Shown here in pieces: positions 14,664 through 62,128 of a stretch of DNA of 64,000 nt. The notes beneath the pieces are model-generated. The model saw only the letters and a program-made list of their open reading frames with translations. It did no database searches and had not been told where the DNA came from. The stretch lies in assembly GCA_019448385.1 (NCBI GenBank), contig JAGTXO010000009.1, forward strand, positions 62,001-126,000, read 5' to 3'. Source of the DNA: Diacronema lutheri. Lineage: Eukaryota > Haptophyta > Pavlovophyceae > Pavlovales > Pavlovaceae. The position numbers were made by a program, and so were the translations under genes. Every line of letters starts with the position of its first letter. Position 1 is the stretch's first letter.

Positions 14664-15232
14664 GGCGCGGTCCGGGCTGGTCCGGCCAGTGTAAGGCTGA
14701 GTGTACGACCCGGGTCGTACAATCAAGGGTTAAAAGCCAGCCAATGAGCGCTCGAGGGGTCGGAGCGAGGCTTTGGACGAGCCTAGGGCCGAGACCCCCC
14801 TCCGACCGGCCGATTTTGAGTAGAATTCGGGGTCGAGCGGGCGCGGCGGACGGAGGGCCCGAGCCGGGCCGACGGAGGGTCCGACCCCGGAATGCGGGCG
14901 ACCGGAAGGGCTTGGGTGATTGACGCCCAGTAGAATAGAATGGCGGATTCCGGGGGGGATCGCAACTGGCATCGCGCAAGCTGAGGCCCTCTGACTGACC
15001 GGACCGCGCCGAGTGCGCGTGCACCCCGTGGAGGGCGCGGCCAGTCAGACACCCTTCGCTACGGAGCTAGCCGCGGCATACCGTGCGCTGCGCCGGCGCG
15101 CTACTTGCCGTTGGCCGAGCTGCGGGTGTCGCGCACGGCCGTGCTGCGCAGCCAGCGCCTCGATGCGCCGGTGGCCGGAACCAGCGCCTCGACAGCATGT
15201 TGGCTCACTTGGGCTCGGTGCGCGGCTCTGCC

Positions 15233-15265
<33 letters not shown>

Positions 15266-16390: not shown

Positions 16391-16522
16391 CGATGCGCGG
16401 CGCCTGCGGAGGACTGGTCCGATGGCGCGCAAACCGTGGGCGAAAGGGCGCGAAGCCAACGGCCGTCCGCGCACGTTCAAACGCGCGCATATGAGTACGG
16501 GTGGCTTCCTCCCACCTTCGGC

Positions 16523-16834
16523 GCCGCTTTCTAAAAGGGTGTAGGGTGTAGGGTGTAGGATGCAAAACAAGCCCTCCCTACATTTGGGCCCGACGTCATT
16601 CCTTCTTTCGTCACAGCGTCAATCCTTCTCCCCCCATGGGACTTTCATACCCGTACTTATCCTACACCCTACACTATGTAAATACTTAGAGAATAGATAC
16701 ATCCTACACTAAGTAAAAGCACTCGTATGTGAGTAACGTCACGGCTTCGAAGAAGGAATGACGTCGGGCCCAAATGTAGGGAGGGCTTGTTTTGCATCCT
16801 ACACCCTACACCCTACACCCTTTTAGAAAGCGGC
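16523..16834. mobile_element. Foldback/MITE-like element with perfect 85-bp inverted arms
   Basis: The arms 16523-16607 and 16750-16834 are exact reverse complements around a 142-bp loop. The element is clearly AT-richer than its surroundings and has no ORF. Each arm carries three tandem GGGTGTA-type heptamers next to AAAAGGG, giving a telomere-like look, then a unique segment containing GGGCCCGACGTC. The palindrome GGCGCC flanks both sides (16520-16525 and 16835-16840). It sits just beyond the right end of repeat copy 1. Interpreted as a non-autonomous terminal-inverted-repeat element; no matching autonomous partner is seen here. Confidence 0.8.
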
Positions 16835-16934
16835 GGCGCCTCAGAGCATGGCGCCCGCCCGCTCGAGCCGGACCTCCGCGCAGCCGGACTCGCCCCGCCC
16901 CGGGCTGCTCTGGCTGGGCGACGTCGTGCGCGCC

Positions 16935-17219
16935 TCAGAACGCCGCGCTCGCCACGCGCACGTAGCCCTCGTCCGGGTCCGGCTCGGGCGCCGCGTCGCG
17001 CACCGAGCGCGACGCGGCCTCGACGCTTGGCGTTTCGGCACGCGAGGCGACGGATGCCTCGTCCGGCCGGCCCCACGGCAGCTGCAGCTCGAGCTGGCGC
17101 TGGATGATGCGCGGCGTCGCCACGCGCCCGTGCTGCACCTCGCGACGTCGCGCGCGCACGTAGAGCACGATCGCCACCGAGCCGCTGAGGCCCATCATCG
17201 CGCCGAGCAGCACCGACAT
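16935..17219 (-). CDS. Small single-pass membrane protein, 94 aa
   Basis: Starts MSVLLGAMMGLSGSVAIVLY: a hydrophobic segment at residues 2-21, then RARRREV, which predicts a cytosolic C-terminus by the positive-inside rule. The remainder is polar and acidic at the end (PEPDPDEGYVRV). No family recognised. A longer in-frame start at 17300 exists but would place a polar leader before the membrane segment. It is head-to-head with the helicase pseudogene. Size and isolation make this tentative. Confidence 0.45.
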   Translation of the reverse strand: MSVLLGAMMGLSGSVAIVLYVRARRREVQHGRVATPRIIQRQLELQLPWGRPDEASVASRAETPSVEAASRSVRDAAPEPDPDEGYVRVASAAF

Positions 17220-17406
17220 TGTGGTCTCATTGTCTGCTTGGGCGCGAACGGAAAACGCGCGAAGGGTGGCGACGAAGATCGTTGGGTTGGGTTGGGCCAC
17301 CGGCTCCCGAGGGTTGCTTGTGGCGCTCGACTGACCGTTGGCCCAGCTTTTTTTTTCTCGAACCTACTGTGGAGCCGCCTGCAGCGTGATCCTCGGCAAA
17401 ACGACC

Positions 17407-19790
17407 ATGGCTGCCATCGACCTGCGCGCCTTCGACGCGGCGCTCGTCAACTGCGAGATCGTGAGCACGCGGCCGGTCAAGCCGAACGAGAAGGCGCGCA
17501 CGGTCGTCAAGCTGAGCCACGGGCCGTCGCGCCGCGCGCTCGCCTTCGTCACGCCGCCCTGCGTCGTCGACTGGCCCGAGCTCACGGGCGACGGCAACTT
17601 TGGCACCACGGACGGGCCGACGGACGTCGACAAGGCGGCGTACACGGCCGGCGTGACCGACAAGGAGCTGCCGATCGCCGGCGCACCGCTCGCGCAGATG
17701 GACGCCTACTTTGGCGCCCTGCGCGCTATCGACGATCAGCGCGTCGAGACGGTGCACGCGCGCCAGAAGGAGCTGCTTCACACGCGCGGCCTCTCGAAGG
17801 AGGAGGTGCGCGGCAAGCTCTCGCCCACCGTCAAGCCCAACTATCAAGGACGGCACGCTCGCGTACACGCGGCTGAACATGTCGACGCGCACGTTCACGT
17901 GGGCGGGCTCCGAGCGCGTCGTGCCGCTCGTCGACGCGCGGCGCGAACCGGTCGACGAGATCCGGCACGAGGACGTCTGCGCCATCGCCACGCAGCTCGA
18001 CTGCGTCTACACGGGGCTCACGGGCTCGATGTTTGGCACCAAGTGGAACGTGGGCGGGGTCATGCTCCTGAAGCGCGCCGAGCAGCGGCCGCAGCCCGGC
18101 TCGGACGCCTTCGCACCGTACAGCGTGGCCGCCTGGGCCGACACGTTCGACTCCACGGGGCTGTACGTGCCCGACGAGCGCGAGCGCGCGGCGGCGCTCG
18201 CGGCGGTGGCCGGTCTGCGCACGGCGCGCGCGCCGGCCGGGCCGGGCGGGCGCGAGCTCGCGCGCGCGCCGGGCTACGATCGCGCCGAGCGGGCTGCGAG
18301 CGCGGCGGCGGCGCGCGCGGCGATGGCCGAGACCGGCCAGCAGCGCGCGCTCCACGGCGCGGTCGTCGAATCGGCGCTGCGCGGCGTGGGCGACCGGCTG
18401 CATCTTTGCGACGCGCCGGGCGGCACGGGCAAGACGTTCGTCGAGCGCGCCATCATCGCCGCCGTGCGCGCGGATGGGCACGCGGTCGTCGTGGGCGCGT
18501 CCTCGGGCGTCGCCGCCACGCTGCTGCCCGACGGCCGCACCTTCCACTCGACCTTCAAGGTGCCCGTCGGCGCCGACTCGGACGGGCAAGCCGTTCAATG
18601 GCGTGCCGCGCTCCGAGCGCGGGCGCTCCCTCGCCGCCGCGGCGGCTGGTCGTGTGGGACGAGGCGCGGCGCCGATGCAGAAGCGGTGCCACCTCGACTC
18701 GCCTGATCGGTGTTTGCGCGACGTGACGGGCGTCGACGAGCGCTTCGGCGGCAAGACGTTGCGGCTCGCCGGCGACTTTCGCCAGTGCTTGCCGGTGGTG
18801 CGGCGCGGCTCGCGCGCGCAGATCGTGCGCTCCTGCCTCAAGTACTCGGCGCCGTGGCAGCACGATCGGCAGCACGCCTTGGTCGAGGACTTTCGCGCCT
18901 CGAGCGCGGCGCGCGACACGGGCGACGCGCTCGGCGCGGGCGAGTGGGCGAAGCTGCTGCGTAGCCCCGGCGACGGCGCCTTTCCCGCGGCGGTGCCGGC
19001 GGCCGGGGCCATGCCCGGCGCATTCCCGCTCGATCCCGTGCAGCTGCCCGAGGCCGTCGGCGGCGTCCCCATCCGCGTGGGCTCGGCCTACCCGACGGAT
19101 CTCGTGACGACTTTGTCCACGGCGCGGCGTGTTGGACCGACGACGGCTCGCTGTGCGACCGCGCGGTGCTCTGCGCCAAGCAGACGGACGTGGCGCGGAT
19201 CAACGAGCTGGTGATCGGCCGCTTCCCGGGCGCGGCGGCGAGGTGCGAGTCGGCGGACGAGCTGCGCGACGACGTGGCGGGCGGGCAGATTGCGCTGGCG
19301 TCGGTCGAATTCCTCGACTCGCTCGAGCACGCGCAGATGCCGCACCGCGTCCTCGACCTGAAGCCCGGGATGGTGGTGATGCTGCTGCGCAACCTCTCGC
19401 CCGGCGAGGGGCTGTGCAGCGGCACGCGGCTGATCGTGCGCGGCGTGCGCGCCGGCGGCCGGCTGCTCGAGTGCGCACCCCCGGCGCGGCCGCCGGGCGC
19501 GACAGCACCGTGCTCGTCGCGCGTGTCAACCACCACTCGCCCGACGACGGCACGTTCGCGCTTGTGCGGATGCGCCGTCAGTTCCCCGGTGCGGCCGGCG
19601 TAACGAGGCGCAAAGGCAAGCGCTCGGGTGCGCGGGCGTATGGCTCGCCGAGCCGTGCTTCACGCACGGCCAGCTCTACGTGGCCGCTTCGCGCGTCGGG
19701 CACACGTCGCGCGTCCGCTTTGCGCTCGGCCCGGACCTCGTGACGCGCAGCGTCGTCTTCAAAGAGGTGCTCCGCGCGGTCAGCGGTGGC
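17407..19790 (+). pseudogene. Frameshifted PIF1-like helicase with N-terminal domain of possible viral type
   Basis: Two parts are readable, but only by changing frame repeatedly. The first (17407 to about 18120, from MAAIDLRAFDAALVNCEI) has a pattern I associate with ssDNA-binding-like proteins of algal giant viruses (GNFGT, YTRLNMSTRTFTW, FGTKWNVGGV); this is a weak match. The second is a PIF1 superfamily 1 helicase: P-loop APGGTGKT (18412-18435), Walker B LVVWDEA (about 18642-18666), a GDFRQ-type motif (LAGDFRQCLPVV near 18770), VVMLLRNL with GLCSGTRLIV (19370-19440) and THGQLYVAASRV (about 19660-19700). Frame shifts occur near 17845, 18590, 18660, 19110 and between 19500 and 19650. PIF1 proteins of this type travel with Helitrons and large DNA viruses. 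Decay could be real or partly sequencing indels. Confidence 0.75.
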
Positions 19791-21300
19791 GAGGCGGCGG
19801 CGGCGGCGGCGGCGCTCGCCGCGGCCGCCGTCGCCGCCGCGCGCGAATGCGCGGCGGCGGCGCGCGGTGGCGGCGGGCGCGGACGGCGCGCGCGGCGCCG
19901 GCGGCGGGCGGCGCGCTGGCGGCGGGCGCGCCGCCGGCGCGCGGTGCTGGCCGGCACCCGCCGGCGCGACGCCCGCCGCGCCGCTCGCGCCGACGCGCAG
20001 CCGGCGGGTGCTCGCCAGCACCGCGCGCCGCGCGACCGGCCCGCGCACCTGCGCGCCCTTCGAGGGCGCGCAGGGCGGCGCCAATGCGGCCGGCGCGCAG
20101 GGGCCTCACGCTGGCGCGCTGCCGCCGCGTGGGTCGCCGCTGCGCGCGTGCCGTCGGCGCTGCCGCCGCCCGGCGTCGCGCTCGCGCCGCAGCCGCCGCC
20201 GCCGCCGTCGCCGCCGCCTGCCGCCTGCCGGCAAGCTGGGCAAGTGCGCAGCGGCGGCGACGGCGGTGCGCGACCCGGCGAGCAGGCGGCGCGCCGCCGA
20301 GCCGGGGGCGGGCTCCGTGGGCGACGAGGCTCGCCCGCCACTCGCGCGCCAAGTGCGCCAAGTGCGCACAACGCGCCCCCCCCCCCCCCCCCCCCCGATG
20401 AATTTAATGCTCATACCATGGCGTCGCGCCACGGCAGTACGCCCGTGGCCCCGGCGGCCAGCCTCGCGCCGCTACGCCGTGTCGTCGCGGCCGGCGCACA
20501 CAGCGAACTGTGTGTCCGCGGCACATGCCCGGCTGCTCGCGCGCTGCAAGCTTGCCGAACTGCTCGCGCTGGAATGGCGCGTTGCGGGCGTGCCCGCGCA
20601 CCGCGCGTGTGCCATGCGCGTTCCGGGAGCGCCGCGCCGCGCGCCGAAGCGGCGCGCGGCGGACGTGCGGCCTCGGGCCGAAGAGGGGCCGGCGCGACCG
20701 GCCGCGAGGCGGGCGCAGACGCTCGGCGTGCCGGTCGATGCGTCGTCCAAATCCGCGTCGGGCGGATGCGCGCCTGGGCCGGCGCTGCGTGCAGTCGGCG
20801 GGGCCCGGCCACGCGCTCGGGCGTAACGTTCGCGCCTGTTCGGCCGAGGCGCACTCGCCGTCCCCTCGCGCCGGCAACGTGCGTGCGGGCCAGCACGCAG
20901 GCAGCGTACGATGCGACGGCAGCGGCGAGCGCGTCCCCGCCGGTGCGCCGCTCGGCGCCCCGTCACGCGCAACGTGCGCGCCGCCCGCTGCATGCGCACG
21001 CATACGCGCGCTGGCAGCGTGCGCACAATTGCCCGGGCAAGATCGTCCCGCGCTCGCGCCGCCGACGCATCATTCCATGTGTCCGTTTCGGCATCTGCCA
21101 CCATCCACCAGCCCTCGAAAGCCGGCTTGCGCGTGGGCGCCCGTCCGGTGCGAGAAGCGGCTCGCGTCCTCGCGCGGGGCGCCTCCGCGCCAGGCGCCCG
21201 GCGCGCGCTCGTCTTGCCGCGCCACCACGCTGATCTGCGCCCAATTCTCGCTCGCCAATTCCCCCGTCGTCCCTGCTGCGCAGCCCGCAACAGCGCGCGC
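19791..21300. other. Low-complexity stretch without a supported gene
   Basis: GCC/GCG-rich sequence giving poly-Ala, poly-Arg and poly-Pro translations in all frames. It includes a 21-base C run (about 20376-20396) followed by an AT-rich patch ATGAATTTAATG. Long ORFs here lack any domain-like composition. It may hold the end of the helicase pseudogene and an upstream exon or promoter of the C19 peptidase gene, but neither can be placed. Confidence 0.5.
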
Positions 21301-22940
21301 ATGGCGCGTGCACGGCGCAGCGCCTTGAGCAAGTTTTACGTCGTCGGTCGGCAGCCTGTGGAAGACGCGTTTTACGGCCCGATGTGGCCGGTGAGAATGC
21401 CCGACGTGCCGCGTGGTGAGCGCCTGCACGGCTTGCCGGGCTCGGCGCGCGCCCAGCCAGCCTCCCTCCATCCCGCCGCAAACCGTGCGTGCGCTCCCCG
21501 CACACCCGGCGCTGCGCGGCGCGGCGCAGGCGCGAAAAACGAGGGCAACGCGTGCTACACGACCGTCCTTATGCAATCGCTCTTCGCCCTGAACGTGCTC
21601 CGCGCGATGCTTCGCTCCGCTTCGCGCCGTGCCAACAGCGTCGAGAGGGCGTGTTTTCGGGACTTTGGCACGCTGATCGAGGACACCAAGGCGCCGACAC
21701 AGCTGTGTCTTGTGTCCGTCATTGACGTCATCTCGGGCCGTGGCGCGCGAAGGACGCCGCAGGATGCCGCTGAGTTCTTCCGGTTGCTGCTCGGCCGAGT
21801 GCCCGGGCTCGCTGCGGCCTTCGAAGCCGACACACGCGTCGGGCCAGTGCTCGAGCAGATCGCCGTGCCTTCAGAGTCCGGCGAGGGCATCGCCGTACTC
21901 GTCAGCATCGGCGGCGATGCGGCGCGCGCGCTTGCACACGCTCTGGGGGGCGCCGCTGGGCCGCCGCGGGATCGCCACACGAACGCGGGCCACTCGGGCG
22001 TGCTCACGCCAGCCAGCATCGCTGTCGAGGCGCCGCGCACGACGCGCGGCAATGGCTCGCAGTGCAAGAACAACCGCGCGCTCGTGTGCGCGCCGCGGCT
22101 GCTACTCGGCGGGCGCGACCACCTCCTCGTCGCCGGCGTGGTGCACGTGGGCGAGGGGCCGATGAGCGGGCACCTTGTCGCCATCGTGCTCCGCAACGAG
22201 GCTTGGCTTCCGTGCGACGACTACAACGTGCGGCGGCGCGCACGGTCGCTCGGTGCCGCGACCGGCGGTCGAGCGCAGCCGCGACCGCCCCGTCCTCCCG
22301 CGCGGCACGCGCGCGTGGCCTGAAAGCCCGCGCGCGCGCCTGCCGCACGCACGCGCGTTGCCCGCGCAGATCTACAACGTGCCAGAGTCCGACGCGCTGG
22401 CGTGGGCAAGTGGTGCGAGCATGCTCGTTCACAGCCGGCTCGACGTGGAGCCGTTGGACCCGGCGCTGGGCTCAGCGTCACCGCCGTCGGCCGCATCGCC
22501 TGCGTGGCCGAGCTCGGAGCCCGACGCGCCGACCTTGCCGGCAGCCTGGCCGCGGGTGCGGCAGATGGCAGCGGTGCCAACAGATGCGACGATCGGCATC
22601 GCGGAGACGGCTGCCGACATCTCTACGGCGGCGATCGGCCCAGCTGCGTGCGAGGCCCGCCAAGTTGTCTCCGTGACGCGCGCATTGCCAACAGCGGTGA
22701 GTGCGTCCTCGTCTCCGGCGGCCGCTGTGCCGCCCCCCCCCCCCCCCCCCCCCACCGCACACACACACACCACTCTCCCTACCTTCTTCCTCCTTTCGCA
22801 CCTCGCACGCGCACGCCGTCCGCTGTCCGCTGTCCGCGGCCCAAATTGCCTTGCGGAAGCCGAGCAGGCAGAGCCCTGCTTGGATGGCTCCAGCGCGCAT
22901 CTTGTGGATGGCGACGCTGTGGGCGAGCACGGACGCTTAA
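21301..22940 (+). CDS. Ubiquitin-specific protease (peptidase C19)-like protein
   Basis: Thiol protease of the type that removes ubiquitin. The Cys box NEGNACYTTVLMQSLF (about 21541-21590) matches the N-x-G-N-x-C-Y signature; TPQDAAEFFRLLL (about 21757-21793) matches the QQDAxEF box; and GHLVAIVLRNEAWLPCDDYN (about 22168-22227) carries the catalytic His and the DD pair. A 142-bp intron (22228-22369, GTGCGG to GCGCAG, phase 0) joins DDYN to IYNVPESDAL, restoring the normal DDxxVxxVxE C-terminal pattern. A second intron is plausible at 22697-22871 with a last exon ending at 22940 (440 aa in total), but that is uncertain, as is the start. The domain is compact, lies inside the mobile-element-like island, and may be an element-borne accessory gene. 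Confidence 0.6.
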
Positions 22941-23314
22941 ATGTGACCAGTGGCGTGCACGTGCACGTGCGCTGGCTGGACGTCGAGCGTGTGCGCCTTG
23001 TTCGCACGTGTGCACTCACGTGCGTCTGCGGCGATCTGCCCGGCGCGGTAATCCGCGCGCGCGAGAGCCGCGTCGGCAGTAGGAGCAGGACATCGTACTT
23101 GCGCCTGACGAGGACGGCGAGAAGTGCGGCTTTTCGCTCGGGGCCTACCATGCCGCCGAGGTTGGCGCTGGCGAGCGTGAGGCAGTCGGAGCGCGCTGGG
23201 CCCGGGTTGGAGGCCTCACCCCGGGGGACGGGAGGATTCAAGGCGCCGAGCCGCTGCGGGTGCGGCGGGAGGCCCCGGGCGGGTGTGCGAATGCGGCTCG
23301 ATGGCCGCCTGCCT

Positions 23315-23345
<31 letters not shown>

Positions 23346-25531
23346 GGGCGTTGGGCCGCCCGCGGAAACTGAGGTGAGCGTGTGGCCAAGGCCGCCGCAC
23401 CCGCAGCTATCACGGTGGCAGCGACCGCCACGGTCAGTGCGAGGCTCGCGTGGCCGCTGCGCGGGCAGCTCGCCCGCCAGGTCCAGGAGGGCCGGCCTGC
23501 GGCCTCGGTGCCCAGCGTTGGGCATGTCAGCGTCTGCGTCTGCGGGCCCGCCACTGCGATGGCGCTTTGAGCCTGGCGCACCAAAACGCAATCGGTCCGC
23601 CGATCGGGGGTGCGAGGCGTGCGCGGGGGCTTGGGGTGGGCTCCGGGTGCCGGCGCTGTGCCAGCGGCGGGCTTGGTTGACGCCGTCTTGCCGGGGCCCT
23701 TGCGCCTTGCGGCGCGAGCGTCGCGGAGGGGCGTCGGCTGCGCTGGCTCCGCGTCGGCGGTGGCGTGGGGCAGGCTCTTGTGGAGGGCGGAGCGCTCGCG
23801 CACGAGTCGGTTGCCAAGGCGGGCTGTCTGCGTGCCGTTGGGCTGCGCTTGGGCAGGTAGGACCTGCGGCCTCGAGGGCGTGCGGGTTTTCGTGTTGGGC
23901 CAGGCGGCAGCGCGCACCGGCCGTGTTCGCGGCCGGCAGGCGGACGTCCGCAGCGGGGCGGAGAATGCGGGTGAAGCGCCTGCATGGGCGCGATTCGCAC
24001 CTGGCGGCCAGGCGATCACGAACCGTTGGGTCGCCCGGCTGTTTGGTGGAGCTGAGGGCAGCAAGGATAGCGAGCTTGGCCGCCTCATCGGTGACGAGCG
24101 GCACTGTTGCCCAGCTCTGTACCTCGAAGCCCTGGATGTGCAGGCGTCGGGGAAGTTCCCGGCAGCGTCGCCTGCGTCCGTCGAGAGGCGGACCGAACTC
24201 GCGCCCGTGCCCCCGTTGGCGACACCGAGCTCTCGCTCGTTCACACCGGCCCGCCGACGCGGGCGCGTGATGCGCGCGCGTTGGGTGCGTGTCTGCCTCG
24301 AGCAGCGTGCCCAGTCGCAGTGCGGGCGCGTGTCCGTCTGCCTCAAAACGCCACGTGGAGGGGAAGGCGCGGGGCGGGCTCGCCGAGGAGGTGCCGCCGC
24401 TCGCTGCCACCCGGCGCGGGCTCGGTGCAGACGTCTTCGGGTGCCGCGCTCTTCGCGCCATGCACGAACGCTCCGCCGCGCTCGCAGCGCGCGAGCGCAC
24501 ACACAGAGCGCGCGGCGACCCCGGCGGGGGCAGTGCGTCCCGGTGGCACTCGCGGGCGCGCGCCTGGCCTGGGCGCAGCTGGGCGCGTTGCCGCCCGCGC
24601 AGCGAGCCGCCCGCGCGCCTCGCCGCGCGCGCGCTTCGTCGCACGCGTGCGCCCTGCATGCACGCGCACAGCGCGCGGCGGCTCGGCGCAGTGCAAGGCC
24701 GAGCGTGCTGCAACGGTTGCGAGGGCGCGCACGCGCGGCGCGGCGCGCCCCTGTGTGGTCGCCTGCGCGCAGCGCGTGGTCCGGACGCAGCTCGGTGGCG
24801 TGATGCCGTTCGTGCAACACAGTGCGCGTGAGAGCCGCACGTGCACACCCGCAGTGCAACGCGGCATTGCGCGCGTTGCGTGGGCGGAGCGCGGCTGGAT
24901 GTGCTTGAGGTCGCGCAGCATGCCGCGCGCCGCGCGCTGTGCGGCGCAGCGAGTCGGCCATGCCCCTGGTCCTCGTCTCCGGGGGGGGGGCCGGGGGGGG
25001 GGGGGGGGGGGGTGGTGGTGGCAACCAGGATCCGCCAGCGCGTGGTGGGCGCCGTCCAACTCCCAACCAGGATGCGCCCCGTTCTTCCCCGACACTCTCC
25101 GTCCAAACCCGCCGCCCAGCCTGCCGCCGCACCCGCCGCCAACGCCGCCGCGCACCCATCCGCCGAGCTCACCGCGCGCGCGCTCGCGCTCACGCTGCGC
25201 GACGAGGCTGCGCTGGCCGGCGCGCGGCCGTGCAGAGCAGCGCAGGCCGGCGCGCGGCCGCGCGCGCGCGCTCACGTTGCGGCCGCGCAGCGAGCTTTCG
25301 CCGCGTCGCAGCCCCTCCGAGCAGCCACGATGCACGCCCCCGGAGGACGTTGGCCGCGCTCGGAGGCCGCGCTCGGGCGCGCAAAGAGAGGCGGCGCGGG
25401 CAAACGAGTAGGCTCGGCGCGCTGGCGGGTCCTGGTTGTGGGAGAGCGGGGCATTCTCCAGGGCATCATGTAAATTCTCCCAAGTATCATCCGGGCTGCC
25501 ATCCGGACACTGACGTGTCCACAGTCTGCAG
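22941..25531 (-). mobile_element. Remnant of a LINE-type retrotransposon ORF plus low-complexity DNA
   Basis: Minus-strand translation contains GEASNPGP (23220-23197), the 2A-like ribosome-skipping motif that precedes the endonuclease in many protist non-LTR elements. Directly after it comes LTLASANLGGMVGPERK and a KYDVLLLLPTRL segment resembling the start of an endonuclease/exonuclease/phosphatase domain (DVLLLQETRL type). The catalytic Glu position reads as Pro or Thr here and the domain then degenerates, so it is a dead fragment. Upstream on the same strand (about 24180-23850) a non-repetitive stretch with LHIQGFEVQSWATVPLVTDE may derive from the preceding ORF. G runs lie at 23315-23344 and 24993-25012. 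No reverse transcriptase is visible. Confidence 0.5.
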
Positions 25532-26716
25532 ATGGAGGACTCCGTGAAGGACGCTTTGCGCGGCGGGCTGGGCAGCTCGGACAGTTTCTCGCTGGCCCTC
25601 AGCACCACCGTGGCGAACAGTGTGCGCCACCCCCACGTGGTCCCACCCGAGTGCGTCCTCGCCCTGCTGCATGGCGAGAGTCTCGGCCCGAGCGTGGTCA
25701 AGGTGGAGTTCAAGGCGTGCTCGAAGCATGCGCTCAAGGTGGCGCTGCGCAACCTGGGCAAAGCATGCGCGGATGCGGACCGGCTTGGGCAGGTGCTCGT
25801 GGTCGTGCTACCGCTCTGCCTCCGCGCGTCCAGCGGCCTCGATCACTGGACGGCGGCGTACCTGCTCCTCGCGCCGCCCGCGCAGCGCGGCGCGCCGCCC
25901 GGCGCCGCGCTCGCCCTGCACGCCGATTCGCTCAGCTTGGGCAATGGCAAGTCGGCGCACGCCACGGCGGCCGGCAAGCTCATCACGACGCTCGCCCAGC
26001 GCATCGGCATCCCAGCGCCGCCCATCGATGCCTTGAAGGCGCCCGCGCAGAGTGGGAACGAGTGTTGCTTCGCCGCGGCAACACTCGCGGCCGAGGTCGC
26101 GGCGAGCGCAGCGCCGACGGCGGGCCGCCGCGCGAATGTCCTTGTCGGGATCAAGAAGGCTTTGGACGCGCGCCTCACGCGACTCACGACGGCCGCGTAC
26201 GAGGAGGCCCGCAAGCGCACGCTCCACGCCGCCGTCGGCGCTCTGCTCGACGACGGCGCCAGGCGCTGCGGCGCGTTCACCGACGAGGCCGCGCGGCTCG
26301 CCGAGGCCGCGCGGCTCGCCGAGGCGTGCGGTGCCAGTGTCGGCGGATCCGCGCCCGACGGGCTGCTGCAGGCCGTCGAGGCGGCGCTGCGCGCGCCCGA
26401 CGACCGCATCGCACGCACGGCCGCGCTCGACGCGCTCACGGGCGCTGCAGGCCGCGCGCTGTCGACGGCGGCCAGGCCGCGCGGCGCGGCGGCGCCAAGG
26501 CCGCCGTCGCGAGCGCCACCGCCGCGTGCGCCGCAGCGGCGCGCCGCCTCGGCGTGGGGGCACCGACCATTCAGCAGCCTCGGCGTGGGCGAGGGCGACG
26601 GGGGCGATGGCGACGCCACCACCGCTGACGACGGGGAGGACGCGGAGGACGGGGACGACGACCTCTCCAACGACGATGCGGGTCACGACACCGACGACGA
26701 CTCCGCCGACGGCGGC

Positions 26717-26747
<31 letters not shown>

Positions 26748-28918
26748 GCGGCGGCGGCGACGGAGGCGGCGGCGGCGGCGACGGAGGCGACGGCGGCGGC
26801 GGCGGCGGCGGCCAAGGCTCGCCGTCGGCAGCCCCAGAGGACTTCGCGCTGGCCAGCCCCGAGGCGGTGCTCGAGCTGCTCGCGGCCGCCGCGACTGTGC
26901 GCGAGCAGCTGGCGCTCGCCTTTGCGCCGTCCGGCGGCGCGCGCGGCGACGCGCTGGACGCGAAGCGCGCGCCCTTTGAGGTGCTGCGCTCGCTGCTGGT
27001 GCGCGTCGCGCGGCTGTCGGACGTGCGCGCGCGGCTGCGCCTCCGCCAGCTGCTGCTCGCGCTGCGCGATCCGCGTTGCGCTGCCAAGCGCTCGCGGCGG
27101 CGCACGGACGAGCTGCGCGACGCGCGCCGCGTCGCCGAGCGGCTCGTCGCCGAGCTGCACGTGGCCCTGCCCGACTGGCAGCTCTTCTCCGGCGTCTGCG
27201 CCGGCGAAGACGGCTCGGCCGACGCGCCGTTCACGATGCTGCGCGTCGCGCCGCGGCCGGGGCAGCGCGGCGCGCCGGGCGTGCGCGACGTCGCCCAGCT
27301 GCTCGGCGGAGTGCGGCTCTCGAGCGCGCCGCGTGCGCTGCTGGTCGCGATCGACCGCCCGTCGACCGACAGGGAGCCGGTCGAGCTCGGCGGGCCGGGC
27401 GGCGGCGGTGGCGGCGCGCTCGTGCTCGGCACCGTCGGCGGCCCCGACGCGACGTTCGCGCTGGCGAGCGTGCTCGTCCAGCGCCGCGGCCGCAAGCGCG
27501 ACGCGTGCGCCGTGCTCGCGCCCGCGCCCGACGGCGGCTGGTGGCGCGTCGACGGCGGCGGCAAGCAGCGAGACAACGCTGGCAGCGCGGCGGCCGAGGC
27601 GCGCGAGCTCGCCGTGGTCGCGCTGTACGAGCGCGTCGAGCCGCACGCGCCGGCGCGCCGAGTGGTCGGCGCGGCCGACGAGGCGCGCCTGTGCGCCGTC
27701 GCGCGCGCGCTCGACGCGCACGGCGAGCAGGTGTGGCGGTGGGCGACGGACACGGCGCCGCCGCTCCGCGACGCGCTCGACGTGCTGCGCGTCGGGGCGG
27801 ACGCGCCGTCGGCGTGCGCCGCGCTCGCGGCCGCCGAGCTCGCGCCGCTCTTCGCGCGCGCGCACGTCGACGGCGCGTGGGCGGCGCGCGACGGCGACGT
27901 TGTGCTCGCGGAGGCGCGCAGCGCGGCCGACGCCGACGGCGTCCGCAAACGCACGCGCCGGTCGACGCCGTCACTCCGCCCCAGGCTCGTCGTCGCGCTG
28001 CGCGATGGCACAGGCGGAAGGGTCGTGGCGCTGCTCGTCGTGCTGCCGCCGCGCGCGGCGGGCGCCCCCGCGAGGCCGCTGCTCGTCGCGCCGCGCGTCG
28101 GCGGCGACGACGACTGGCGCATCGCGCGCGCGCACGTCGGCGAGCTGCGCAGCGCGGAGCTGCTCAGCACGGAGCCGACGCACGTCGCGATCGGCGGCGT
28201 CGCGCGCGCGAAGCCGCACGTCCTTGCGCTCGAGCTCGCGCTGCTCGCGCGTGCGGTCGTGTGCCACGACCTCGGCGACGCGTGGGCGCGCTGCACGAGC
28301 GCAGACGAGATGTGCCGCAGTGCGAACGCGCACATCGCCGGCCTGCCCGACGCGCGCGACGGTGTCGAGCGCGCGGCCGTGGCCGTTGCGGCGCATCGCT
28401 GGCGGTGGGACGTGCCGCTCGCGGCGCCCTCCGCCGCCGCGTCCACGGCCGCGGCGCCAACCCCGCCGGCGGCGCCGGGCGGCGGTGGCTCGGCGCCGCT
28501 CGGCGCGCCGGTGGCGCACGTGGCGGCGAACGCGGCGGCGGGCGCGCTCGTCGTGGCGGCGGCGGCGGCCGTCGCGGCACCGAGGGCGCCGTGCGCGCCA
28601 CGCGCGGGCGCGACGGCTGCGGCGGTGGTGGTGACGGGCACGGCGGCGACGAGCGCGGTGGCGGAGGGCGCGGCGCCAACCTCGCCGGCGGCGGCGGACG
28701 GCGGTGGCTCGGCGCCGCTCGAACGCGAACGCCGCTGCGTCTACACTGCGCCTGGACAGGGCGACGCGGACGCGCGCGTGTACGACGCCAAGGACCCCGA
28801 GAAGCTAAAAGCGGGCAGGGCGCGGGGGCGAACAGCGGGCGCGCGCCCGCCGTGGTCGACACGCTCGACGCGCACGCGACGGGCACGATCGTCACGCAGC
28901 AGCGCCCGGAGGTCATGA
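25532..28918 (+). CDS. ORF A: Ulp1-like (C48) cysteine protease with acidic/Gly-rich and Trp-centred modules
   Basis: 1128 aa as read. The N-terminal domain (about residues 80-190) has the Ulp1/adenain arrangement: LVVVLPL then DHW (His105), HADSL (Asp132), and PAQSGNECCF (Gln173, Cys178), so the H-D-Q-C set is complete. Such proteases cleave SUMO-like proteins or element/viral polyproteins. Residues 350-430 are Asp/Gly repeats (26590-26815), a likely flexible spacer. The rest contains two or more modules with a hydrophobic strand pair around a W-R or W-x-R core (DGGWWRVDGG, DDDWRIARAH). The last about 37 codons look unlike the rest, while the -1 frame looks coding from about 28810. The true product may therefore be fused to ORF B. 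It lies directly upstream of ORF B on the same strand. Confidence 0.65.
28805..28811 (+). other. Candidate -1 frameshift site between ORF A and ORF B
   Basis: In frame A the codons read CTA AAA GCG. Slipping one base back at AAA enters frame B, which reads on without a stop into the ATG at 28915 and beyond. Protein-like composition switches frames at this point. A simple one-base indel, or reinitiation at the ATGA overlap (28915-28918), explains the layout equally well. Confidence 0.3.
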
Positions 28919-31900
28919 CCGGCGCGGAGATGCACCGCCTCGCCGCCCTGACGCAGGGCGCGGGGTACGGTAACGTCGTGCTGGCCAAGCTGGGCGAGCC
29001 CGGCTTCGCGGGGACGACATGGCACATGACGTCGGGCGTGGAGAACCAGTTGCACGCGGTACGAGCGGCCGCGCGCGCGTACGCGCTCGACGGCTGGGGC
29101 GGCGTGTACAATGCGGACGAGGACTTTGCCGTCTTCGAGGGCTTGCCGCGGCTCGCCGCGCCCGAACCGCTCGCGGCCATCGCCGGCGGGTCGGCGGACG
29201 CGGTGTTCTGCTGGCGGTCCGGCCGGTCCGTCATCGGCGAGGTGAAGACGGTTCACTTCGATGGCGACCGCGCCGCTGCCATCGTCCACGCGCGGGCGCT
29301 GCGCGTCAAGCCCGATTGGCGCTCGCAGCCCAGGATCTACGAGGCGGCGTGCGGCGCGGAGGGCACGGTGCTGCTCGTGTGGGTCGTGCCCGACCGTCAC
29401 AAGAACCCGCGGCTGGACTGGGCGCCGATTCTCGTCGTGATCCACCTGCCCGCCGACCCCGACTGGCTCGCGCGCGCCACGCCGGCGATCGTGAAGGCGT
29501 GGCGCGAGGTCGAGGACGGACGCGCGCTCGCGGAGGCGCGCGGCGTGCCGCAGCACCTCGCCTACACGCTAAGCCCACGCTTCCGAGGCACCGCGCCGCG
29601 CGGCGCCGCGCGCGTGCCGCCGCGCCTCGGCGCGAGCGACGCGCGCGAGGCGCGCGCGCTCGCGGCGCTCGTGTCGGCGCTCATGTTCGTGCCGGCCTGG
29701 CGGCGCGCGGTGCGCGCGGCGAGCCGCGCCCCCGACAGTGGCGCCGCGGCCGTCGCGCGCGCGCTCGCGCGCCTGCACAACGCGCTCGAGCCCGATGACG
29801 AGAGCGCGCCCGAGTCGGCGCGCGTCGCGCCGCTCGCCGCCGCGCTCGAGCAGTCGGCGGGCTGGCCGGCGGGCACGGCGCGCGGCTTGTCGGCCGACGG
29901 CGCGCTGCGCGCGCTGCTCGACGTGCTGCGCGCGTGCGGCGCGAGCGACGAGCTCGAGCGCGCGCTGCGCGGCGGCGAGCCGCCGGCGCCGGGCGCGCCC
30001 TCGGCGCGCGGCGCGTCGGCCGCGTGGCCGCTCGTCGCGCTGCGCGCCGCCGACGCGCGCGGCGCGAGCGCCAGCGCCGCCGTGTCGCGCGCGCTCGGCG
30101 CGCACGGGGTGCGCAACCCGCCGCGGCTCGTCGTCGTGCACGTCGCGGACGCGACCGAGTCGCTGCTCGAGATGCCCGAGCGGCTCGCGCTGCGCGTCGC
30201 GCGCGGCGCCGAGCCGGCCGAGCCGACCGCGGACGCCGCCGGGGCCGACGCCGACGCCGAGCCCGCCGCCGTGCTCAGGCTGGTCGCCGTCGTGCTGCGC
30301 GACGCGTGCGACGACAAGGAGCGGCTCGTCGCCTGCGCTGCCCTCGCGCCCGGCGATCGCGACTGGATGCGCGTTGCCGCCGCGAGCAGGCGCGCGTGCA
30401 CCGCGAGGGTCGCGCTCGAGGGCCGCGCGCTGCTGCTCGTGTACGCGGCCGAGCCGGACGGCGCGCGCGCGCGCGGCGGCGGCGCGAGCGCGCGCGCGGC
30501 GGGCGCGCCGGCCGGCGCGCCCGGCGCGCCGAGCGCGGAGCCGGCCGGCGAGTCGCGCGGCCGCCGCGTCGCGCCGCACCTGCCGCCGCTGCCGCGCAAG
30601 CGCAAGCGCGATGCCGAGGCGCGCGCGCGGCTCGCGGCCGACACCGCGCGCGTCGACGCGGCGGCGCGATTCGGCGGTCCGCCGCTCACGTACACGTGTG
30701 GCGGGCGGCCGCTGTCGACGCACGACGTGCGCGCGCTCCAGGGCAAGTACACCGAGGTGCCTTCGATCGTCGTCGAGGCCGAGCTCGGCGCGATCAACCG
30801 CGCCGCGGACAAAGCCGGCCGGCCGTGGAGGACGGCCGGTCCGGCCGTCGCGCGCGCGCTGCTCGCCGCCGTCGCCGACGGCGGCGGCGAGCCCAATCGC
30901 GCGCAGGCCGCGCTGGACGAGCACGGCCTCGGCGAGTGCACGCACCTCGCGCTGCTCTTCGCCAGCACCAATCGACGGGTCGGCGCGGCCGTCGTGGTCG
31001 TCGTGCGCGACGGCGAGGGCGGCTGGGTGCAGCACTACAACCCGACCGCCGCGCCGGAGCGCGCCACGGGGGCCAAGCCGATCGCCGTGCGCGAGCGCGC
31101 CAAGGAGATCGAGCGCCAGGCGGAGCAGCTCGTCTGCGGGCTCGCGCGCGCGCTCCGCCTGCGCGCGCTTCCGCCCGTCGACGGCGCTGCGCCGGCGACC
31201 GCGCGGTCGGCGCAGCCGACGGCGCACGGGCGCGCGGTCGGCGGCCGCTGGCGCGTCGAGCGCAAGGCGGATTCGCGCGCCGCCTGCGTCGTGGTCATGT
31301 CCTGGCTCGCGCTCGGCGCGCGTGACGCCGCCGCCGACGTCGGCGGCGGCGGCGGCGGCGTCGGCGGCGGCGATGGCGGCGGCGACCAGAGCGCGCTCGC
31401 TGCCGCGGCGAGCGTGCTTGCGCTCAACGTGCACGCGACTGCGCAGCTCGCCGAGTACCGCGCGGCGGTGTTTGCGCTCATCCTGCGCGAGACGGCAGCG
31501 CAGCTGCGAACGCGCGACGCGGCGGTGACGCAGCAGCCGGTCGCGTCCGCGCCGGCGTCGGCGGCGCCGACGCCGGGGGAGGCTCGTGCGCGGTGCCTGA
31601 ACGAGCTCAAGGCATCGGGCGGCAAGCATGCGGTCGTGACGCCCGCCGCCATTGACGGCGTGCTCGCCCAGGTGCGCGACCCGGCGCGCGGGTTCCGCGC
31701 CTTCTTCGGCCCGGGCGAGACGCGCGCGCTGCTCGACGCGCGCGACGCACGGCACGAGGCCGCGCAAGAGCGGCTGCGCGAGTGTCTCGACGGTACCGAC
31801 TGCGACGCGCTGCTGCTCGTCCACTCGCCGAGCGACGGCGCCGACCCGCAGCTTCTCCTCCTGCTCGCCGCCGACGAGCACGGCGCAGGTCCGAGCGGCC

Positions 31901-34900
31901 GCTGGCGCCGGTTCCTCCTGCTCGAGCGCGCGCCGCGCGATGGCGCGGCGGGCGCGGCGGCGACAAGATGGGCGGGCGGGCTCGTCGCGCGTTTGTTCGG
32001 CGGCGACGCGACGCTCGAGCAGCTGCGCCGGTCGGAGCGCTCGCGTGCGTACGTGCCGCCCGCCGGCCGCGCGGGCGTGTGGGCGCTCGCGCTCGCGCTG
32101 TGCGTGCTGCGCGTGGAGCGCGGCGGCCTGCTGGGCAACGCCGGGCGCGTGTGGCCGCGCGAGCGCGACGCGCAGGCGGCCGGCTGGATGCTCGAGGCGT
32201 GGCTGCGCGCGGAGGCCAAGCGCGAGGCCGCTCTCCGCAAGCCGCCGGTGAGCACCGCGCCGGCGTCCGGGCGCGGCGCGGCGGCGGCGCGGCCGCGCGC
32301 GGGCGGCGCGGTCGGCGGGGGCGTGCTCGCGTGCGGCGAGTGCGCGGAGCCGGCCGCGACGCCGCGCCGCGCCGCGCGGACGGCCGCGCCGGCGGCCGGC
32401 GCGGCCAACGCGTCCGCCTGCGCGTGCTGCGCGAGCGCCGAGCCGCCGGCCGAGCCGCCGGACGCGACGGGCGAGCGCATCGCTTGCCTGCAGAAGCCGA
32501 AGGGCTGGCGCACGGAGTACCGGACCCTGGAGCTCAGCGACGGCGCCTTTCGCGGGCGGGCAAAGTACGGCGTCAAGCTGATGCACGTCGTGGACGAGGC
32601 GAACGCCAGCACGCGCATGACGTACAACGTGCTCAACGACCGCGCGCACACATCGCTGCCGAACGCCGGGCAGTGCTCGCCCGGCGACGAGCTGCAGCGC
32701 CCAGACGACGAGCTGAAGGGCTACCCCAAGGGCAAGGACGACGTGGACAACCTGATCCGCCAGATCGAGCTGCCGCCCGACCAGAAGGGCGGCCATCCGC
32801 TCGGCGAGGCCAACGCGGCGCAACGGGCGCGCAACCAGCGGCACATTGACCGGCTGTCGCAGGGCGACGCGCCGACGGCGCGCTCGCACCCTTCGCTAAA
32901 AGGCTGCGTCGACGCCGAGGCGGAGAAGATCTTCACCGCGTACAAGATGCACCCGCGCCGCGTCGCGTACAAGCTGCTGCGCAAGCTGCTGCGCGCGGCG
33001 ATCGACGCGGGCGAGGCCGCCAAGCCGCGCGGCGCGCGCACGTCGAATGAGCAGCGCGACGCGGACGTCGCGACGCTGCTCAAGCTGCTGTGGTCCGGCG
33101 ACACGGCCGGCGCGGCGCCGCGGCTGCCGCCCGCGCTCGCGCAGCACGCCGACTGGCTCGTGCTCCCATGCGACTACAGCACGGATGACCCCAAGGTCAG
33201 GCACACGACCAACTACTTCCTGACGGTGCGCGCGCGCGCGCGCGCGCGCGCGCGCCGCGCGGCGCGCGCGGGGACGGAGGGGGCTACGCACGGGCCCGCC
33301 GCGCGACGGTGGCCGCGCCGTCCGCGCGGCGCGCGCGCGTGCCGCGGCGCGCCCCGCGCGCGCGCGCTCCGCGGCGTGGCGCCGCGGCCGGGCATGGACG
33401 GGCGCGCGCCGCGCGGACGACGTGCCGCGCGCGCGCGCAGCAGGGCCACGGCGCGCGGAGCGCTCGACGGCGCTGATGGCGTGCTCCCCGACCTCCACCC
33501 CCCCCCCCCCTCCCTCCCTTCCTTCCCTTGCGTGCGCCGCGCAGCCGGATAAGGCGGCGATGGGCGCGTCGCTGCTCGCGCGCCTCGCGATGCTCTACAC
33601 GCACGTCACCGGCGAGCCGCCGCCGTACGCGCTCTGCCCCCGGCGCGGGAGCATGCAGAAGCGCTTTGTCGACCTGTCCGCGCAGGACCTGTACCTCCTG
33701 CTCGACGAGGACGACAAGGCCTTCGTCCGCGAGTGGGCGCGCAAGCTGCCGACGGCCGACGGCGTGCCGCACGACGACCCGCACAGCGCGACCAGCGACC
33801 CGCGCGTCAGGGACATGATCTTCTCCCACTTCGTCAGCCTCGACGAGCGGGCGATGCGGTGGACGGGCCAGCAGCTGCCCGGCAGCGACGTGACGGCGGA
33901 GCAGCGGCCCACGTATGTCGGCACCGCCGTCCCACCCGCGACCGCGTCCGCCGGACCGCAGCCGGCGGTGTACATGCGCCACAACGGCCACGCCTGGCAG
34001 GTGGTCGTGCCGGTGTTCAAGCCGCCGCCGCCCGGCGGCAGCAAGTCCTTCCTCGACGATTGGCGCGATCCCAACGGCACGTTCGACGAGGCGACGCCCG
34101 AGCAGCTGGCCGAGGCGATCGAGGTGAACGGCCTCAAGACGGCCACGGTGGACCCCGGCTCCGACGGCTTCGTGACGTACGCGCCGAACGGACACGGGCT
34201 CGAGCCCACCTCGGTTCGCCTCACGCAGCGCGAGCGCGCCGCGCGCGCGGGGCACGCGCGCGAGCGCAGCAAGCTCGAAGGCGCGCGGCAACGGCCGCTC
34301 GTCGAGCCGGGCGCGCGCGCCGGCCCGTCGGGGCCGGGCGGCGCGCGGTCGCGCGCGCCGCGTGCTCCGCCGACGGCGGCCGCGCTCGAGGCGGATCTCG
34401 GCGCGGCGCACGGCGGGCGCACCGCGCTCGGCGCGAACGACCAGGCCGCCTACGCGCGCGCGCACGAGCGCGTGCGACGGGCTACGCTGCCCGTGTACGG
34501 CGCGCGCGCGCGGCTGCGCGCGCGCAAGCGGCGCGGCGGCGCGGGCCGGCGCGAGTGCGCGCGCGCGGCGGCGCGGATCGTGCGCGCGCACGCGACCGAC
34601 CGAGGGCTGCGGCCAGACCAGCTGCTCGTGCTCTTCGGCGATTGGCTCCACCGGTCGCGCGGCGGCGGCTGCGTGCGCGGCAAGCCGCCGGCGCTCGGCG
34701 TCGGCGTGCTGTGCGCGCTGCGCCGGCGCGGCGTCGCGGCGACGCTCGTGCCCGAGCCGCTCAGCTCCAAGTGCTGTTCGCAGCTGCGCGAGGTGCGGGG
34801 CGCGCCCGCTGCGAGCGCGGCGCCGGCCGCCGACGCCGGCGCAGGCGCTCCCGCCGACGACGGCGCGCCGACGACGGCGGACGAGGCGGCGGGGCAGCCG

Positions 34901-35505
34901 CCGCCGCTGCAGCGATGCGGAGGCACGCTGCACCCGTACGCGCGCAGCTCGCCGAGCGGCCGCGGCGCGTGGCGGGCGACGCGGTGCGACGCGTGCGGCA
35001 TCATCTACCACCGCGACTGGACGGCGGCGCGCTGCATCTACCACGATGTGCTCGACATGGTCGCCGACCACCTCGGCAGGCATGAGCGCATCACGTCCGA
35101 GCCCGGCCGCTTCAAGCGCGTCAAGGCCTTTTGGCAGCGCGCCCTCGGTCGCGAGAGAGAGCACGACAAGGGCGAGCTGCAGGTGGACGAAGACGAGGCG
35201 GGCGGCGGCGGCGGCGGCGGCGGCGGCGGTTCCGGCGGCGGCGGTGGCGGCGGAGGTGCCGGCAGCCGCGGCGGCGGCGCCGGCGGCGGCGGTGCCGGCA
35301 GCCGCGGCGGCGGCGCCGGCGCCGGCGGCGGCGGCGGCGCCGGCGTCAGCGGCAGCGGCGTTGGCGTCCTCGGCGGCGGCCGCGGCGGCGGCCGCGGCGG
35401 CGGACGCAGCGGCGGCCGCGGCCGCGGCCGCGGCCGCGGCCGCGGCCGCAGCGGCGGTGCTGGTGCTGCCGGCGCCGCCGACGGTGCCGCAGCCGCTGCC
35501 GCACA

Positions 35506-35538
<33 letters not shown>

Positions 35539-35944
35539 TGCCGCTGCCGGCACCGGCACGACCGGCGGCAACGCGCGAGGTTCGCTCGCGTCCGCACGCG
35601 ACGCGGCGCCGGAGGCGAAGCGCCAGCGTCGCGTCAGCACGGCAGCCGCGAACGGCGCAGCCCCTCGCCGGTCGGCGGCGACCTTGCGGCGGGGCGGCTC
35701 GGCCAGCCCGAGCACGCGCGCCACGCCCCTGGGCCCGAAGCGGGCACGGGCGAGCCGCAGTGGCGCACAGGACGCGACCGCCGCCGTGCGCGCGCGCGCG
35801 CACGCGGCGCCGCGCGTGGCGGCGCCGCGCGGCGGCGCAGCCGGTGGCGCGACGAAGCGCGCCTGCCACACCCTGCTGAGAACAACGCTTCATGGCGATC
35901 TTCAGCCTCAGCACGAGCCGCTTGCGGCTTCGCACGCCCCGTAA
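28915..35944 (+). CDS. ORF B: giant protein with PD-(D/E)XK-like nuclease and C-terminal Fanzor (TnpB-like RuvC) nuclease
   Basis: Exons 28915-33225 and 33545-35944 (319-bp intron, GTGCGC to GCGCAG, phase 0), about 2,236 aa. Near the N-terminus, GSADAVF (Asp at 29197) followed by GEVKT (Glu 29239, Lys 29245) fits a PD-(D/E)XK nuclease. After Trp-centred modules and a Cys-rich patch (about 32320-32450) comes the Fanzor-like part. RuvC-I is DPGSDGFVTYAPNG (Asp 34151), followed by LTQRERAARAGHARER. Then come FGDWLHRS and VPEPLSSKCCS with RuvC-II Glu (34754). CDACG leads to YHRDWTAARCI with RuvC-III Asp (35015). The CxxC partner expected after SSKCC is Leu. The tail (35197-35944) is Gly/RGG/Ala-rich with KRQRR-type basic clusters, suggesting RNA binding and nuclear targeting. 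Fanzors are eukaryotic RNA-guided nucleases of mobile elements. The start could be upstream if ORFs A and B are fused. Confidence 0.75.
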
Positions 35945-36051
35945 GGGTCGTATATACGACAGCAGGTAGCGCCCTCTATACGATGTCGCCCGGACCCCCC
36001 CCCCCCCCCCGGGCCCCCCTCTAGATCTCCTGCGCGCCAGATTCTTACGGT
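35945..36051. repeat. Palindrome and poly-C tract between convergent genes
   Basis: GTCGTATATACGAC (35947-35960) is a perfect 14-bp palindrome starting three bases after the stop codon of ORF B; a partial copy, CTATACGAT, follows near 35976. A C run lies at about 35995-36010. TnpB/Fanzor guide RNAs usually derive from the element end near the ORF, so this gap is where one might lie. No clear guide-RNA fold was recognised by eye. Confidence 0.35.
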
Positions 36052-37248
36052 TCAGCACCGCGCGAGCAGCTCGTCCAGCTTGGCGCGCTGCGCGTCCGTG
36101 GGCGAAGCGCCGAGCGCGGCTGTCGCTTCGGCGCGTGCGCGTGCACTGTCACCCATCCTGTGCGCGAGCTGCGCGAGCAGCAGCCGCGGCTGCACAGAGC
36201 GCGGCGACGCTGCGCCCCAGCGCGCGACGCAGATGCGCACGGCTTCGGACAGCGCGCGCTCCGCTTCACCCAGCCGGCCCGCGGACGCGTGCGCCTCGCC
36301 TGTGCGCGCGGCGCGCGTGGAAATTTAAAAAAAAGGGGGGGGGGGCAGTAGCAGCATATGGGCATCAGCCAAGCGCGCGCGGCCGAGCGCGGCAGGGCGC
36401 GGCGCTGCGGCGGCGCGGCGCACCAAGCCGCACGAGGATCGCCGCGAGCGCGGGCGACTTCTTCGGCTCCTCCGCGACGGCCTCGCGGAGCGTCGTCGCA
36501 GCGCGCGCGTAGAGCTCGGCAGCAGCCGTTACATCTCCACCATCCTCGCGGATCGCTGCGAGCGCGAGCAGGCAGGTGGTCGTCGTGCGGTGCGCGGGGC
36601 CGGCGGTCTTCTCGAAGAGCGAGAGCGCGCGCTCGTATAGCGGGATCGATTCGGCCACGCGCCCCGTGCGACGCAGCAGCTGCGGCGAGCAGGGTCGCGC
36701 ACACCGCGAGGACGCGCGGCGGGATGCACGGCATCGCGTGAGCGGCGGCCTGCGCTGACGCCTGCCGCTCGCGCTTCGTGACGAGGCGATGAAGCGGCCC
36801 GCACCGGTCGAATGGCACACGCGCCCTGCAAGCATGGTGGGCGCGCAAAGGGCGCGCGGCACTCGCAGCGCACCTCGGCCAGGTTGTGCATCGACGTGGC
36901 GACAGGCGGCGACTCGTTGCCAAAGTAGGAGGCCTTCTCAAGCGCGGCGCGCAGCTCGACCTCCGCCTGCAAGCGCTCGCCTGCGCTCCACGCGGCCTTG
37001 GCGCGCTCGATCGTCGCCTTCCAGTCCTCGACGCGAGCAATGTTGACATCCAGGTTGCGCGCGGTCAGGTCGCCGTTCGCCTCCGCCTCGGCCGCGGCTG
37101 CCGCGGAAGCAGGGCCGCGCGGCGGCGGTTGCACGCGCGCGGGTGGCGCGTCGCACCTGGCCCACGCGGCCGTCCCTACGGCGAAAGCGCCCGCGGCCGA
37201 GGCCACGGCGCCACGAAGCGCGCCTTGACGGACGATGGCCCTCAGCAT
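36052..37248 (-). CDS. Organelle-targeted TPR repeat protein
   Basis: Three exons: 37248-36874, 36679-36424 and 36299-36052, phases consistent, 292 aa. The N-terminus MLRAIVRQGALRGAVASAAG is basic, Ala-rich and lacks acids, as in mitochondrial or plastid presequences. The body has kinesin-light-chain-type tetratricopeptide repeats: VATSMHNLAE|LLRRTGRVAE, SIPLYERALSLFEKTAGP, TAAELYARAATTLREAV, GRLGEAERALSEAVRICVA and LAQLAHRMGDSARARAEA. Both introns fall inside helix-turn-helix units and restore the repeat exactly, which supports the joins. TPR arrays bind protein partners; no partner can be named. It is convergent with the Fanzor gene (107 bp) and lies 42 bp downstream of the NADPH oxidase stop. 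Confidence 0.8.
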
Positions 37249-61919: not shown

Positions 61920-62128
61920 GCGCACGGCGGTGGCGAGGCGCGACCAGAGGCGCCGGCCGGCGCCCCCGCGGGGGCTGCGGGGCTATGTCCTTGAGCCGTT
62001 CCGCCGCCACAGCCCTCGCCTTGCGTCCGTCATTGCGCCACGACCCTTCCTGCGCGGCTGTGTCACTTGTCGTGACTCGTGCCATCCCTCGCCGAGCTTG
62101 TTACCACGAACTTCCGCACTCGCTTATG
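61920..62128. other. Intergenic gap before repeat copy 2
   Basis: No gene, repeat or promoter motif recognised. Composition is close to the surroundings, with a few TTG/CTTG patches. Confidence 0.5.

Follow-up and report, generated by a model that had tools for sequence, protein, structure and literature searches.

A candidate Fanzor-lineage RuvC domain at the end of a very long protein encoded by a probably mobile, multi-copy element of Diacronema lutheri

Introduction

Fanzors are eukaryotic RNA-guided nucleases, and a spliced gene of the pavlovophyte alga Diacronema lutheri raises the question of whether a nuclease of this kind may form the end of a much larger protein. The gene lies on the plus strand of a 64,000-nucleotide stretch of contig JAGTXO010000009.1 (positions 62,001 to 126,000; hereafter the window, within which all positions are counted). 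A preliminary description had seen in it a Fanzor-type RuvC nuclease with an intact catalytic triad. In our judgement the product of the gene is likely to be a very long protein whose C-terminal part is a divergent RuvC nuclease; this nuclease would belong to the TnpB/Fanzor lineage and most resemble Fanzor1, and the gene would lie in a pavlovophyte element that is present in many copies and probably mobile. The unusual feature is the giant protein that the Fanzor-like domain ends. If true, the presence of a Fanzor domain at the end of so large a multi-domain transposon protein would show how such nucleases enter larger machines, and because its copies are dispersed in an alga that has been sequenced and can be cultured, the element is open to testing. 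Haptophyte viruses are known to carry Fanzors (PMC3627910); a word search of the main texts of PMC10711439, PMC10432273 and PMC11423790, the supplementary catalogues lying outside it, found haptophytes unmentioned.

Results and Discussion

Gene structure and coding signal

The end of exon 1 (32473..33225, from ERIACLQKPKG to NYFLT) is an open frame with a third-position GC content of 0.95-0.97, probably the Fanzor N-terminal (REC/WED) part, so named because of its distance to RuvC-I. It is followed by a phase-0 GT..AG intron (33226..33544), where periodicity falls, and by exon 2 (33545..35199), to which motifs, periodicity, profiles and alignment assign the rest of REC together with the RuvC and zinc-ribbon (TNB-like) parts. 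The protein ends in a Gly/Ala-rich tail (35200..35944, stop codon at 35942-35944), whose basic stretches KRQR (35618) and KRAR (35738) could be nuclear signals. Coding periodicity was observed directly. In the exon-1 frame the signal spans about 28.65 to 33.2 kb, third-position GC being 0.84-0.98 in sections between 28.65 and 33.6 kb (for the two covering 32.25-33.15 kb, 0.97 and 0.95), and in the exon-2 frame it is 0.92-0.97 over 33.6-35.4 kb. Since periodicity runs in one frame and then passes to the exon-2 frame, this is a gene and not merely part of a GC-rich genome in which stop codons are scarce. The nuclear genome of D. lutheri has 73.25% GC (PMC8379373), and GC bins of the window range from 0.64 to 0.81.

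Protein searches, which were word-based, worked within set length limits and scored 7,994, 7,986 and 1,524 candidates, returned D. lutheri proteins only: four and two matches, one of them shared (P0001-P0005), and none in the third search. NYFLT|PD is crossed without a gap by all five relatives at the residue equivalent to 33225/33545, with P0001 showing 68% identity before the junction (102 residues, from 32923 on) as against 58% after it. The junction of the preliminary description, phase 0 on both sides, thus fits every relative found.

The same relatives also bear on a different reading, in which the RuvC half would be part of an intron, or the relic of a decayed sequence, and the living gene would use only the REC-like exons around 33145-33724. 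In P0003 the residue at 33616 is followed by the tail (at 35864 in the filtered match), P0001 departs from the window sequence after 33904, and the D. lutheri gene models were built using BRAKER2 with RNA sequencing data (PMC8379373). However, third-position GC in the RuvC half (0.92-0.94) is similar to that of the remaining gene, the half holds motifs in order, and the P0001 and P0003 copies may instead carry internal deletions. On balance, we find this reading improbable.

Catalytic triad and motifs in exon 2

The positions given earlier for the triad are all exact. RuvC-I reads VDPGSDG (34148..34168, catalytic Asp 34151-34153), RuvC-II reads VPEPLSSK (34748..34771, alternative Glu 34754-34756) and RuvC-III reads HRDW within HRDWTAA (35009..35020, catalytic Asp 35015-35017). 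The Asp and the Glu are 201 residues apart in the exon-2 protein, and the Glu and the second Asp 87. FGDW lies at 34634..34645, its Gly 39 residues before the Glu. The zinc-ribbon region (34772..34996) has Cys at 34772, 34775, 34916, 34985 and 34994, of which the last four are the C4 candidates, and its second knuckle leads into the RD of RuvC-III (CDACGIIYHRD). The 'LTxRExxxxAG' helix of the preliminary description is low-complexity sequence, tied to no described motif, and is dropped.

Fanzors are distinguished from ordinary TnpBs by DPG in place of D-hydrophobic-G and by a Glu shifted to a site six residues ahead of the zinc finger (PMC10711439). Both marks are present in exon 2, where the Glu precedes the first ribbon Cys by 6-7 positions (E-PLSSKC-C). 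Judged from these motifs, the RuvC-II Glu at 34754 is the Fanzor-type alternative Glu, and the strand with FGDW would occupy the site of the canonical RuvC-II Glu strand.

Membership in the TnpB/Fanzor lineage

For comparison, TnpBs were collected by scanning GTDB contigs with the pattern E..TSKTC..CG. From at least 120 loci we obtained 62 open reading frames (ORFs) that contain the ribbon pattern. DPG is also present in 25 of them, and at least 15 of these 25 come from cyanobacteria. In the alignment of the window protein with the 25 rows (A2), the window D, E and D, as well as CxxC, fall in the catalytic and ribbon columns of all 25, the first Asp in the DPG column. Three MAFFT modes were concordant on this placement for the five TnpB rows compared. 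FGDW was left unaligned to the prokaryotic rows by MAFFT when window bounds and row subsets were varied in 144 combinations, and likewise in three fragment schemes; because no scheme placed it, the full 26-row alignment was adopted.

The family evidence from pattern and profile searches is weak but points in the same direction. The zinc-ribbon motif was called strictly conserved by Bao and Jurka (PMC3627910), and is elsewhere described in many but not all TnpBs and Fanzors (PMC10711439). Using the Bao-Jurka TnpB/Fanzor pattern with a ribbon spacing relaxed by us, we found exon 2 to be the sole matching segment in six frames of the window; when the exon-2 protein was shuffled 4,000 times, one shuffle matched. 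A fuller ordered pattern, composed after the sequence was seen, was matched by 0 of 20,000 shuffles. Pfam PF07282 (TnpB zinc ribbon) partially matches the exon-2 ribbon below the cut-off (E 7.4e-5 to 1.3e-3). Among 535 window sequences, including three overlapping versions of exon 2, exon 2 ranks first by TnpB hidden Markov models (HMMs), with E-values of 0.31 (whole, 25 rows), 0.071 (RuvC half, 25 rows) and 0.13 (wider set of 53), none of which is significant; its scores were reached by one, none and none of 4,000 shuffles, respectively. The wider set, for which a profile of 12 pro-Fanzor-type TnpBs led to 51 viral loci and 28 pieces were added (six loci were dropped for want of D-x-G, the rest were short or duplicate), gave no improvement.

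Several results weigh against a Fanzor assignment. No significant whole-domain match was obtained with phmmer against PDB, with the protein search or with the TnpB HMMs; phmmer queried with the domain, and with two of its pieces, gave zero matches up to E 10. The strict published regular expression for Fanzor-like TnpBs does not match exon 2. The first ribbon knuckle is CxxL instead of CxxC, with Leu for the second zinc Cys, and the ribbon is split by a low-complexity insert (about 34799-34906). The preliminary description had Fanzor order and spacing; the order (DPG, alternative Glu, CxxCG, RD) stands, whereas the spacing exceeds that of SpuFz1, whose triad D383/E541/D606 is 158 and 65 residues apart (PMC11423790). 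Fold prediction was also poor, the two models having a mean predicted local distance difference test score of 43 (the first) and 51.

It could be argued from this that the domain is no Fanzor at all, but a different RNase H-like nuclease, or simply a zinc ribbon, in which alanine-/arginine-rich sequence has produced the motifs by chance. Besides the whole-domain matches that never reach significance, 3 of 100 shuffles put through the same alignment procedure also place D, E and D in the catalytic columns. Nonetheless, none of 60 other ORF pieces did so, and the shuffle and ORF controls taken together, along with a sub-threshold PF07282 match at the right place, make such a coincidence very improbable. 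Motif order, first rank, shuffle controls and PF07282 speak for the claim of Fanzor-type identity. With no whole-domain E-value reaching significance and the strict expression failing, the profile check proposed in the preliminary description is not passed cleanly. The strict expression is a mining filter with tight spacing and not a definition; as exon 2 does not match it, we limit the claim to a Fanzor-lineage candidate, not a confirmed Fanzor1. The RuvC half of exon 2 is best read as a putative divergent Fanzor1.

The likeness to Fanzor1 (SpuFz1, GtFz1, PpFz1) consists in the ordered motifs, in a Gly that precedes the Glu by about 36-39 residues (G500/E536 in SPu-1; PMC3627910), and in a eukaryotic, multi-copy element. 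Apart from its spacing and broken first knuckle, the window domain differs in ending a frame of more than 2,200 codons, whereas most Fanzor1 proteins have 600-700 residues (PMC11423790). With the 25 pro-Fanzor-type TnpBs it shares the catalytic columns, SK..C and CxxCG..RD; it is only 19-26% identical to them, does not align in the FGDW strand and carries long inserts.

One further comparison was set aside as support. When the window row was added to the 25-row profile, the E-value of GtFz1 in PDB went from 0.073 to 6e-4. A Cas12e chain (8xyc) rises similarly, from 15.6 to 22.3 bits, and several prokaryotic TnpB/Cas12f chains fall (8j1j, from 71.7 to 63.2). We do not count the gain because it may reflect a looser profile, perhaps via the insert of the window protein. 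GtFz1 is not among the matches listed in the 50 VIA rows. Viral pattern scans found eight loci with WNRDVNA and two with E[FY]RTSK, none of them holding a DPG-type Fanzor; one viral locus (L008) has a TnpB/Cas12-like protein and another (L003) a piece of the same sequence. No viral relative of the window exon was confirmed among six pattern matches.

Activity and guide RNA

The preliminary description considered nuclease activity possible as the triad is complete, which is a fair prediction from sequence. By analogy with Fanzor, we infer the fold, RNA guidance, cleavage and a role in mobility: RNA from the 3' end of the element would be bound by the RuvC protein and would direct the D-E-D triad to cut matching DNA, and this cleavage might help the element to keep or restore copies.

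Alternatively, the domain may derive from a Fanzor and no longer cut, the triad surviving beside a damaged ribbon and only DNA binding being retained inside a large transposon protein. The CxxL knuckle and the 46 residues between the first two C4 Cys would fit such a loss. A guide-RNA signal was not found either: the fold of 35880-36000 is no better than that of shuffles (z 0.70), and Rfam gave zero matches at the gathering threshold. Moreover, the RuvC half has no match in the D. lutheri relatives P0001-P0005. However, all three acids are retained and periodicity is strong throughout the RuvC half. GtFz1 is active although its third Asp is replaced by Asn and its TNB is smaller (PMC11423790), so that a protein with an unusual site or ribbon is not necessarily inactive. 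We therefore regard loss of cutting as rather unlikely, and retain a divergent Fanzor1-like nuclease as the preferred reading.

Directly after the Fanzor stop there is a palindrome, GTCGTATATACGAC (35947-35960); with one mismatch allowed, the expected number of its 11-mer in the window is 0.03. A TPR-like minus-strand ORF ends about 110 bases farther along, at 36052.

The long protein and its upstream modules

Counted from its Met at 28915, the spliced frame runs for 2,236 codons to the stop. Its uninterrupted upstream part (28915..32472, plus strand) shows coding periodicity and a 27% match to P0001 in which D and ExK are kept. It contains what we take, at the level of motifs, to be a PD-(D/E)XK-like motif, with TSGVENQ within 29017-29049 and GSADAVF..GEVKT at 29188-29250; Pfam left this part unmatched apart from one chance-level row (E 0.04-0.1). 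Farther upstream, a coding stretch in another frame (25514..28810, plus strand) is matched by P0001-P0004. Its several, repeated and degenerate motif stretches presumably resemble those of Ulp1/C48 proteases; Pfam gave no match for it. The coding frame switches at 28650-28900 without a clear intron, for which a short intron, a frameshift or an assembly error are candidates.

The annotated protein P0001 has, in this order, a match to the 25.5-28.8 kb frame (38%), the GS.DA..EVK block (27%), a spacer (41%) and the Fanzor N-part. Since the same order occurs in this divergent D. lutheri paralogue at low identity, the arrangement of the long frame is old. Ubiquitin C-terminal hydrolase (USP-like) exons lie at 21499..22240 on the plus strand (PF00443, E 2.6e-10) and match the N-termini of P0002 and P0004, which fuse ubiquitin hydrolase to the Fanzor-like gene. 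The Fanzor-like end and further parts that resemble enzymes apparently form one long protein. It is tempting to speculate that a single giant polypeptide of a haptophyte mobile element (more than 2,200, perhaps more than 3,300 residues) combines deubiquitinase/Ulp1-like modules, a PD-(D/E)XK-like nuclease and an RNA-guided Fanzor nuclease, the second nuclease perhaps processing ends or nicking the other strand; we hold this to be possible, though doubtful.

Copies, mobility and genomic setting

Near-identical copies of the window gene were observed on several contigs, and the contigs recorded for P0001-P0005 have five different lengths. Over 349-475 residues, P0002, P0003 and P0004 share 98-99% identity with the upstream frame; tblastn with other filtering gave 86% for P0002 over a longer match of 428. 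Pieces of the gene recur in P0001-P0005 with differing gaps, and P0003 has the last 26 tail residues of the window gene unchanged, which together look like a dispersed, partly deleted repeat. Hence the gene probably belongs to a multi-copy, mobile element.

A Pif1-family helicase gene (17407..19650, plus strand; PF05970, E 1.9e-17 and 2.3e-18; PF21530, E 1.8e-15), perhaps of the same element, recalls the Helitron-borne Fanzor1 elements CRe-1, -2 and -3 of Chlamydomonas (PMC3627910), which are likewise algal and spliced. In contrast to these, no matching ends were found in the window and, in the ORFs scanned with Pfam, whose exon joins are not established, no Rep domain of the Helitron HUH type; no transposase was found in them either. 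Between 35944-36055 and 16600-26000 there are no inverted matches of at least 11 nt, and between 35944-36055 and 16840-17420 no direct matches of at least 9 nt, words with fewer than three kinds of base being omitted; element ends and target duplications were not found by these searches. Some 200 unrecognised residues precede the helicase.

Nearby genes are of ordinary nuclear kinds (dynein heavy chain, dymeclin, Cyt-b5 desaturase, FYVE, ferric reductase). A minus-strand ORF (22429-23406), in which Pfam found nothing, resembles what we take to be the start of a LINE endonuclease/exonuclease/phosphatase domain. An 89-nt inverted repeat (16519-16607 / 16750-16838) is 99% identical, and the tandem CCTACACCCTACACCC units inside it look telomere-like. 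Finally, a 1.7-1.9 kb repeat (14652-16390 / 62120-64000, 96-98% identical, same strand), cut by the window end, is probably another mobile element.
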